Shown: piece after piece, positions 44,464 to 45,506 of the stretch
Layout of the letters: each line of letters starts with the position of its first letter
Position numbering within the stretch: the stretch's first letter is position 1
Assembly (NCBI RefSeq): GCF_036203305.1
Contig: NZ_CP108131.1
Span: 3,286,001-3,350,000, forward strand
Direction: 5' to 3'
Length of the DNA: 64,000 nt
From: Streptomyces sp. NBC_00190
Lineage (GTDB): Bacteria; Actinomycetota; Actinomycetes; Streptomycetales; Streptomycetaceae
Notes under the pieces: generated by a model
Told to the model about the DNA's origin: nothing
Database searches by the model: none
Seen by the model: only the letters and a program-made list of their open reading frames with translations
Translations under genes and position numbers: made by a program

Positions 44464-44778
44464 GCCGAGATCTGCTATTGGGCCCCTTATTCACTCTGCG
44501 GAACCAAGCCTATGCAGAAAGTGTTCATATCGCCAAAAATCGTGACACATGCAACGGGCGTCACATGATGCCCGCCTTTACCCGTAATCCACGCGCCACC
44601 CCGGGGCAGGGTTGCGATCCAGCCAAAGAAGCGGCGCAGATCACATTCCGGTCACGAAGCTGCGGGTGTGGTTTGAACTCGGTTGCAGCGCCACATCCCC
44701 GGACGCCGACTGCACAAACCTTTCTCCGTGCACAGCAACCGGATGAGGTGAAACTTTTCCGCCAAACCGGACATTGGG
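44464..44778. other. AT-richer divergent intergenic region between whiB and the cysteine dioxygenase leader
   Basis: About 315 bases with lower GC than the surroundings and no supported gene. It contains an imperfect inverted repeat of GTGAC and GTCAC around 44540-44565 and several A/T runs (CCAAAAATC; GAAACTTTTCC). It is a likely regulatory region for whiB, but no specific operator could be named. Confidence 0.4.
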
Positions 44779-44784
44779 TTGACA
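44779..44784 (+). promoter_or_regulatory. -35 element TTGACA upstream of Cys-rich leader ORF
   Basis: A perfect TTGACA placed exactly 37 to 32 bases before the A of ATG 44816. This fits transcription starting at or near that A, which would make the small ORF leaderless. The -10 (around 44803-44809) is weak. Confidence 0.45.
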
Positions 44785-44815
44785 GTCCGACCCCCGACCC
44801 GCTCTCCTTGTTCTC

Positions 44816-44902
44816 ATGTCAGCGACCGCAGCCACCACCCGGACCCCCATTCGTGGGTTCCTGTGCGCTGCCCAGGTTCGCTGTTGCTGTTGCAGCTGTT
44901 GA
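44816..44902 (+). CDS. Cysteine-rich leader peptide of cysteine dioxygenase (putative attenuator)
   Basis: A 28-codon ORF starting MSATAATTRTPIRG and ending RCCCCSC-stop. Six of its 28 residues are Cys (17, 23-26 and 28), five of them in the last six codons. No Shine-Dalgarno precedes the ATG; TTGACA sits where a leaderless start needs it. The stop is 88 bases before the cysteine dioxygenase start. Poly-Cys leaderless ORFs that sense cysteine supply are known in mycobacteria. Here the downstream gene degrades cysteine. Immediately after the stop, CCTC (44905-44908) or CTCCGAC (44914-44920) could pair with the downstream GTCGAGG ribosome site. The mechanism is inference. Confidence 0.7.
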   Translation: MSATAATTRTPIRGFLCAAQVRCCCCSC

Positions 44903-44990
44903 TGCCTCCGGAGCTCCGACTCCGTACCGGCTCCAGCCCGCCCCCGCAGCAACCGCCAGCACCACTGACATCCGTCGAGGTATCCCCACG

Positions 44991-45506
44991 ATGAACAGCG
45001 CCAGCACCCCCACGTACGCCGAGAGCGACCTCCAGATCGCCGGCGACATCCTCGCCGTCCAGCACCTCCTCCAGCCCGCCCGCGAGCACCCGGCCACCGT
45101 CGCCGAGTTCGTCGGCCTCGCCCGCTCCATCGCCGAGGACCGCGCCTCCTGGGAGCACCTCGTCCAGTACGACGCCACCACCCGCTGGTACCACCGGCTG
45201 CGCACCGGCCCCGGCTACGAGGTGTGGCTGCTCAGCTGGGTCCCCGGCCAGGGCAGCGGCCCGCACGACCACGGCGCCTCCTCCGGCGTCCTGACCGTCC
45301 TCGAAGGCGAGCTCACCGAACACCACACCCGCGGACGGCTCGCCCTCGGCGCCGGCTCCCAGCGGGTCTTCGCCCCCGGCTACGCCCACGAGGTCGTCAA
45401 CGACACCCTCGAAGGCGCCGTCAGCCTGCACGTCTACTTCCCCGGCCTGACCGAGATGCCGATGCACAGCTGCTCCCCGGCGCGCCAGGAGTCGGTCCCC
45501 GCCTGA
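44991..45506 (+). CDS. Cysteine dioxygenase
   Basis: A 171-residue bacterial cysteine dioxygenase, a cupin Fe(II) enzyme oxidising cysteine to cysteine sulfinate. Metal ligands are in the motif GSGPHDHGASSGVLTVLEG (two His) and YAHEVVND (third His). The position of the mammalian crosslink Cys is Gly here, as in other bacterial forms. The preceding WYHRLRTGPGYEVWLLSWVP is conserved. ATG 44991 has GAGG 11 bases upstream; the longer open frame runs through the leader region and is not coding. It is followed by cofD after 32 bases. Confidence 0.93.
   Translation: MNSASTPTYAESDLQIAGDILAVQHLLQPAREHPATVAEFVGLARSIAEDRASWEHLVQYDATTRWYHRLRTGPGYEVWLLSWVPGQGSGPHDHGASSGVLTVLEGELTEHHTRGRLALGAGSQRVFAPGYAHEVVNDTLEGAVSLHVYFPGLTEMPMHSCSPARQESVPA

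Follow-up and report, generated by a model that had tools for sequence, protein, structure and literature searches.

The window, the 64,000-nt stretch of Streptomyces sp. NBC_00190 DNA analysed here, carries on its forward strand a cysteine dioxygenase gene (44991-45506, ATG at 44991) encoding a cupin protein of 171 residues. The product matches Pfam PF05995 with 67.2 bits and is similar to solved cysteine dioxygenases, with which its HxH motif and a later histidine align. The gene is preceded by GTCGAGG (44974-44980, forward strand), a stretch that includes its ribosome site, GAGG. A divergent whiB-type gene (PF02467, 44097-44360) lies on one side of the dioxygenase, and the neighbour on the other side presumably encodes the 2-phospho-lactate transferase of F420 synthesis. 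A search of a plasmid collection returned four matches, all of them distant, and none was a close copy of the dioxygenase gene.

Upstream of the dioxygenase, the presumed regulated gene, lies a 28-codon open reading frame on the same strand (44816-44902), the uORF, which begins with ATG at 44816 and encodes MSATAATTRTPIRGFLCAAQVRCCCCSC followed by a TGA stop. We propose that it is a leaderless polycysteine ORF. Its C-terminal end reads RCCCCSC directly before the TGA, and the corresponding tract TGT TGC TGT TGC AGC TGT (44882-44899, forward strand) holds the proposed sensor codons, the Cys codons TGT 44882, TGC 44885, TGT 44888, TGC 44891 and TGT 44897. One further Cys codon, TGC 44864, occurs earlier in the uORF. 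The original prediction for this locus had named a TTGACA, the ATG at 44816 with its 28-codon ORF, and the motifs CCTC, CTCCGAC and GTCGAGG, all of which we found where it had placed them; we also agree with it that no purine-rich ribosome site precedes ATG 44816 in the window sequence. The window peptide matched no NCBIfam or Pfam family, and Rfam gave no meaningful match to the region (one at 11.5 bits against a cut-off of 35).

We collected 152 Streptomyces loci, mostly picked for similarity and not at random: the best 80 of 165 in one collection (two of them with no fuller title than 'Actinobacteria bacterium'), the 30 best loci from a genus search covering 295 genomes, 28 further loci from a class search and 14 more distant loci of the genus. 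Conservation of the Cys run and its frame among relatives had been offered as the check on the prediction. Under a looser rule (an ATG ORF of 12-60 codons with at least two Cys within the last 12), a uORF with a Cys-rich end was kept upstream of the dioxygenase in 151 of the 152 loci. The sole exception, L214, has no uORF, yet TTGAC still stands close before its dioxygenase gene, and it is perhaps a natural deletion of the leader. De-duplication left 140 distinct loci, retained because the uORF was present, and all 140 satisfied a stricter rule for chance occurrence (an ATG ORF of 15-60 codons with at least three Cys within the last 10). Nothing passed this rule among the 140 reverse strands, 140 shuffles and 2000 segments of 480 nt taken at random from the window, segments touching the locus being blanked. 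The peptides fall into clade A (MSA or MSV, including the window; 47), clade B (MPAT and the like; 27) and clade C (MLAN and the like; 63), with 3 others. The uORF stop is TGA in 140/140 loci and the last sense codon TGT in 134/140, and 138 of the 140 peptides contain 4-7 Cys residues.

The uORF also has a fixed distance to a promoter-like element. TTGACA (44779-44784, forward strand), the -35 of the proposed leaderless promoter, precedes the A of ATG 44816 by 37 nt. Each of the 140 distinct uORF-bearing Streptomyces loci has TTGAC upstream at a distance of 35-37 nt from the uORF start (36 nt in 81, 37 nt in 58 and 35 nt in 1). The proposed -10, TCTCCT (44803-44808, forward strand), follows an 18-nt spacer and leaves 7 nt to the ATG, a spacing that agrees with that of S. 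lividans (PMC8079986). It is atypical in that the usual A at position 2 is missing; across the distinct Streptomyces loci it has T at position 1 in 128/140 and T at position 6 in 139/140. From this promoter geometry we infer that the 5' end of the message lies at or beside the A of ATG 44816, and the uORF is probably leaderless. A box conserved in clades A, B and C, CCGGATGAGGTGAAAC (44739-44754), lies 24 nt before the -35 and could be a regulator site.

We further examined 40 loci from 16 other genera of the Streptomyces family, one without upstream DNA, leaving 39 usable. A strict architecture, consisting of TTGAC, a start codon 35-37 nt on and a Cys-rich end, was present in 38 of these 39 loci, and in none of their 39 reverse strands and none of 780 shuffles. 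The only locus lacking it, L287, comes from a genome with two copies, and the other copy, L288, has the architecture. The peptides drift between genera (for example MSEHRATTRSLHGALRRGSSALCCRCCS versus MPAVIHAPSRTRLAEFRCAVEAHCRCSSCCR) and vary in length. Compared as one peptide per genus, they had a median identity outside Cys columns and gaps of 0.40 (range 0.21-0.73; 17 genera, 136 pairs), and the stop codons of the 38 leaders were TGA in 25 and TAG in 13. Because peptide, length and stop vary between genera, the kept features are the start, the reading frame and the run of Cys codons. The occurrence of the uORF is real, family-wide and not due to chance, and the comparison supports a conserved Cys-run uORF that is kept in frame over 17 genera before orthologous cysteine dioxygenases.

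The choice of Cys codons in the uORF is unusual. TGT accounts for 520 of the 745 Cys codons over the 140 uORFs. Our reference for its rarity is a set of 24 gene-like ORFs from the window, where it makes up 2 of 64, and in the dioxygenase genes of 110 loci it makes up 0 of 106. Clade A uORFs have 145 TGT and 121 TGC, and the bias is maintained in the other genera (128 TGT, 56 TGC). The uORF ends with GCTGTTGA in 133/140 loci. The count of TGYTGYTGYTGY in the window's own genome was uninformative, with 70 sites versus 75 in a reversed-pattern control. In clade A (33 sequences, all equally long) and clade C (28 sequences) it was the third codon position that varied least, a pattern not seen in clade B (8 sequences); likewise, the share of synonymous changes was lowest in the uORF frame in clades A and C. 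Because third positions vary least and TGT is preferred, the leader RNA is constrained too; slow decoding is one possible reason for keeping TGT, and pairing of its U in the RNA is another. With no synonymous excess in clades A and C, we do not take the conserved start, stop and -35 as proof of translation. In its original form, the expectation that the Cys run is kept while its codons drift found no support at short distance: within clades the Cys codons do not drift. Between genera it is the peptides that drift.

We analyzed possible RNA structures around the uORF end. A stop-codon hairpin, H1, has a 5' arm (44894-44905) that contains the last Cys codon and the TGA, and a 3' arm (44913-44921), all on the forward strand. 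The 3' arm shares bases with another hairpin, P1 (44910-44915 with 44918-44923), as well as with the stretch that best complements the ribosome site. In the window H1 has one mismatch, 44896 with 44919. In 62 clade C sequences (alignment A1), 96.9% of the cells of H1 were paired and 12 cells showed double changes; 0 of 500 shuffles equalled either measure, and controls slid along the alignment reached at most 48.8% pairing. The double changes fall at two pairs, 11 of the 12 at one of them. RNAalifold, unprompted, recovered nearly the same hairpin in clade C. A further hairpin after H1 in this clade, T1, was 78.6% paired with 34 double-change cells (0/500 shuffles for each), and its tail is rich in T in some species. 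Counted as covarying pairs and not as cells, these results are less remarkable, shuffles equalling H1 in 32 of 500 and T1 in 426 of 500 cases. H1 in clade A (42 sequences, alignment A2) and clade B, and P1 in clade A, are conserved without covariation.

A longer-range helix, X, would pair GTTGCTGT within Cys codons 1-3 (44883-44890) with GCAGCAAC (44946-44953, both forward strand), the latter about 25 nt before the ribosome site. Among the 42 clade A sequences 97.0% of its cells were paired and five showed double changes, all five at a single column (0/500 shuffles). A free search for pairing between the Cys tract and the downstream leader beat block-shuffled controls weakly in clade A and did not beat them in clades B and C. 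As the shuffles ignore relatedness, we take all of these structure counts as support, not proof. Hairpins of -10 kcal or lower followed by T were found in 24 of 62 clade C leaders versus 8 of 124 shuffles; in clade A, that of the window, they occurred in 0 of 47 leaders versus 6 of 94 shuffles. A candidate for the antiterminator that a classical attenuator would require was 81.5% paired in clade C, and its covariation was no better than that of shuffles.

Local folding energy, averaged and compared with dinucleotide shuffles, was lowest in clade A from +6 relative to the stop (-1.47), in clade C from +24 (-1.06) and from -12 (-0.91), in the other genera from -12 (-1.03) and in clade B from -12 (-0.64). 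Dips of similar size lie near -66 and +66 in clade A and at -66 in clade B, so that a single clear dip is seen only in the other genera. The covarying H1 of clade C supports a leader RNA that is structured around the end of the uORF. We gave no weight to the complementarity, over at least 7 nt, of the uORF start (ATGTCAG) to leader sequence downstream of the uORF, which occurred in 44/47 clade A, 0/27 clade B and 1/63 clade C sequences.

The original prediction had also proposed that sequences behind the uORF stop pair with the dioxygenase ribosome site. In the window, CCTC at 44905 and CTCCGAC at 44914 are complementary to the ribosome-site stretch. Within 60 nt on either side of the uORF stop, the best complement sits 12-15 nt past it in 28 of the 47 loci of clade A; in clade C other places equalled or beat the position behind the stop. 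Within clade A, GTCGAGG is present in 40 of 47 loci, and at the CTCCGAC place 6 or 7 of 7 positions can pair, G-U allowed, in 36 of these 40 sequences, whereas CCTC itself occurs in 15 of 47. A conserved complement to the dioxygenase ribosome site thus exists in clade A, where the proposal is supported in part.

We then simulated the masking of the leader by a ribosome at three positions, using 46, 25 and 36 sequences of clades A, B and C, respectively. Access to the ribosome site showed no consistent change with the simulated ribosome position over the clades; in clade B the site was more open with the ribosome at the stop in 7 of 25 sequences and less open in 1. For the window, the predicted unpaired fraction of the ribosome site was 0.15 in the free leader, 0.02 with a ribosome at the first Cys codon and 0.26 with a ribosome at the stop, and that of the dioxygenase start codon in the same states was 0.37, 0.44 and 0.03. 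The modelled access of the window ribosome site would therefore favour an inverted regulatory sign, while the start codon goes the opposite way.

We compared the leader with known systems. It has the in-frame terminal Cys cluster upstream of a cysteine-metabolism gene that marks the polycysteine type, and it resembles the leaderless polycysteine ORFs of mycobacteria in its probably leaderless type, its terminal Cys cluster and its place before such a gene. Unlike these, it precedes a cysteine-degrading enzyme, and it shows a strong TGT bias and, in one clade, a covarying stop-codon hairpin. Mycobacterial Cys leaders were reportedly tested by Canestrari et al. in 2020. The window peptide did not match NCBIfam NF042933, the Ms5788A leader (cut-off 45 bits). 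In the trp-type attenuator of E. coli, the sensor codons of a leader peptide lie beside the stop codon inside the first hairpin. The present leader likewise has proposed sensor codons and stop in its first hairpin, and in clade C a hairpin resembling a terminator comes next; it differs in that no antiterminator is supported and that the window's clade has no terminator hairpin with a T run (0/47).

Polycysteine short ORFs of mycobacteria were seen in 2015 (Shell et al., 2015, PMC4633059), and second-hand accounts describe this type as cysteine-responsive translational attenuation (PMC9031893, PMC13236596). Cys leaders of mycobacteria had been predicted in 2005 by Seliverstov et al. (PMC1262725), who described them for cys operons of Mycobacterium and Propionibacterium acnes and for cbs of Bifidobacterium. 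Those leaders are, like the one here, short ORFs with Cys runs near the stop and no obvious terminator, but their targets are biosynthetic. Two Streptomyces genomes belong to the set of that study, which is not known to report a Cys leader for either. We found no description of the present leader in an open-licence library, which is without most subscription journals.

Together these results make it most likely that the uORF is a leaderless attenuator that senses cysteine, akin to the polycysteine attenuators of mycobacteria, and that it stands before a catabolic gene. We give the complete explanation, in which this attenuator has the ordinary sign, a probability of roughly 0.55. The conserved Cys-ending frame, the fixed promoter spacing, the rare-codon bias and the covarying hairpin of one clade are its directly observed elements. 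With the message starting at or beside the A of ATG 44816, the 28-codon leader would be translated without a ribosome site, and its C-terminal Cys run, rich in the rare UGU, would tie the progress of the ribosome to charged tRNA-Cys. H1 takes in both the stop codon and the last part of the run, and adjacent stretches of the RNA can form pairs with the Cys codons and the ribosome site of the dioxygenase. By covering some of these elements, a ribosome halted within the run would alter transcription or translation of the dioxygenase gene, and a shortage of charged tRNA-Cys would raise the dioxygenase alongside the cysteine-synthesis genes.

Published expression data bear on this sign. In S. coelicolor treated for 2 h with H2O2, SCO3035 rose 6.5-fold and SCO5772 8-fold, and cysIHCDN, cysM, cysA, ssuABC and metNIQ were co-induced (PMC4991794). 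SCO5772 is named as a putative cysteine dioxygenase (PMC3087709). SCO3034 is whiB (PMC4255298), and SCO3035, tied to the window gene by this neighbour numbering and not by sequence, is therefore very probably its orthologue. Deletion of hbpS-senS-senR abolishes the induction by H2O2 (PMC4991794), so a transcription factor may explain the rise. In S. shaoguanensis two dioxygenase genes were up 21.7- and 6.4-fold at 96 h, whilst cysD, cysNC, cysC and cysH were down at 24-48 h with variable rises at 96 h, and cysM was unchanged (PMC12763843). On feather, a cysteine-rich diet, strain SCUT-3 raised cdo1 50.2-fold and cdo2 8.3-fold, and metNIQ rose too (PMC7181669). On the whole, the dioxygenase genes respond as though they belonged to the cysteine-synthesis group. 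This joint movement of RNA levels is the reason for favouring the ordinary sign, which it suggests as co-expression and not as proof that the uORF is the cause. The inverted sign raised in the original prediction thus found no direct support, the published expression leaning the other way.

That a cysteine-destroying enzyme should be switched on at cysteine shortage is nevertheless physiologically odd and counts against the ordinary sign. A second reading, which we regard as a possible but distinctly less probable one, keeps the same sensor and reverses its sign. With plentiful cysteine the ribosome would reach the stop, where it would open the stop-codon hairpin or mask the anti-ribosome-site stretch behind it, and the dioxygenase would be on; at low cysteine the ribosome would wait upstream and the structures would remain closed. 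This sign fits a target enzyme that destroys cysteine and the induction of dioxygenase genes on feather (PMC7181669). It is also consistent with the 12-15 nt that separate the stop from the best complement of the ribosome site in 28 of the 47 loci of clade A, a distance that corresponds to the edge of a ribosome at the stop codon, and with the window ribosome site being predicted as most open in the stop state. Against it, dioxygenase RNA moves with the cysteine-synthesis genes in two published sets (PMC4991794, PMC12763843), and the masking simulations gave no consistent opening at the stop over the clades. The specific version in which fast transit through the Cys codons to a stop inside the hairpin turns on the cysteine-destroying enzyme we consider doubtful. 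If it were true, the tRNA-Cys charging signal that closes cysteine synthesis would also open cysteine disposal in the same cell, and a codon-run attenuator would be inducing catabolism.

If instead the favoured ordinary sign is correct, a cysteine-degrading enzyme would belong to a family-wide response to cysteine shortage, a physiological puzzle for which a supply of sulfite, disposal of cysteine during peroxide stress or a different thiol as substrate could be considered. With either sign, cysteine-sensing leaders, described mainly in mycobacteria and for biosynthetic genes, would be extended to 17 genera of one family and would gain new features in the strong rare-codon (TGT) signature and the stop-codon hairpin.

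A quite unlikely alternative is that the locus carries a conserved promoter and an RNA hairpin element, the ORF being untranslated or its translation irrelevant. The least variable third positions in clades A and C could indeed be kept for RNA reasons alone, and the near-invariant GCTGTTGA end and the covariation of H1 in clade C would suit such an element; in the 16 other genera, however, sequence, length and stop vary while start spacing, frame and Cys run persist. Least credible of all is a function of the uORF product as a small Cys-rich protein, such as a trans-acting binder of metals or thiols. The 4-7 Cys residues of nearly all peptides (138/140) would speak for this reading, but it is at odds with a median of 40% identity outside the Cys run between genera, falling to 21%, and with a place directly before the dioxygenase and a fixed promoter spacing that suggest action in cis.

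Outside the family we examined 46 loci, two of which are paralogs within the family. A general test gave candidates in 5 of 46 loci on the right strand versus 3 on the reverse strand, counts that by themselves show nothing outside the family. In one further family, f4, 15 of 16 dioxygenase loci carry upstream a short ORF that has CC among its final 7 residues. Under this rule, fixed after the sequences were seen, 1 of 16 reverse strands and 9 of 320 shuffles also qualified, and a looser rule was passed by 3 of 16 reverse strands and 69 of 320 shuffles. We count the f4 result in favour of the attenuator reading. These loci (L205-L207, L230 and L296-L307) belong to another actinobacterial family and have ORFs such as MEHVGFQGCCRRS or MTTGYQECCRA.

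Other Cys leaders occur in the window's own genome. The NCBIfam family NF042934 (cis_reg_atten, 'putative leader peptide') has a curated cut-off of 27 bits, and neither the window peptide nor 9 of 10 relatives gave any match to it; the best score among the relatives was 14.5 bits, for the leader of another genus. Seven NF042934 leaders of this genome exceed the cut-off, several before sulfur genes, which we also count in favour of the attenuator reading. By our reading of the downstream translations, they precede cysM, a sulfite reductase, a thiosulfate sulfurtransferase, two sulfatase-like genes (L231 and L235), a transporter binding protein and a second cysteine dioxygenase, and the sulfite reductase and sulfurtransferase leader loci adjoin matches to PF01507 and PF07210. 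The leader of the second dioxygenase, MTGNDVRLWRRVHMDLLRYAGCVCRPSC (L234, G000:C1:5789423-5789479, minus strand), has TTGAC 36 nt before its ATG. Since the window leader falls outside NF042934, one genome carries two cysteine dioxygenases with two different Cys leaders. A match below the cut-off (L241, 16.3 bits) ends SAACCC and stands before a dicarboxylate-symporter-like gene.

In S. lividans, attenuators are mostly leaderless leader peptides, as is proposed here for another Streptomyces, and none of the 8 listed in that study precedes a cysteine dioxygenase (PMC8079986). One of its leaders, metL, lies before metNIQ, ends RCMCRRMCAF with three Cys residues and was interpreted as methionine-dependent (PMC8079986). 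As metNIQ rises with the cysteine genes (PMC4991794), metL may be a cysteine leader.
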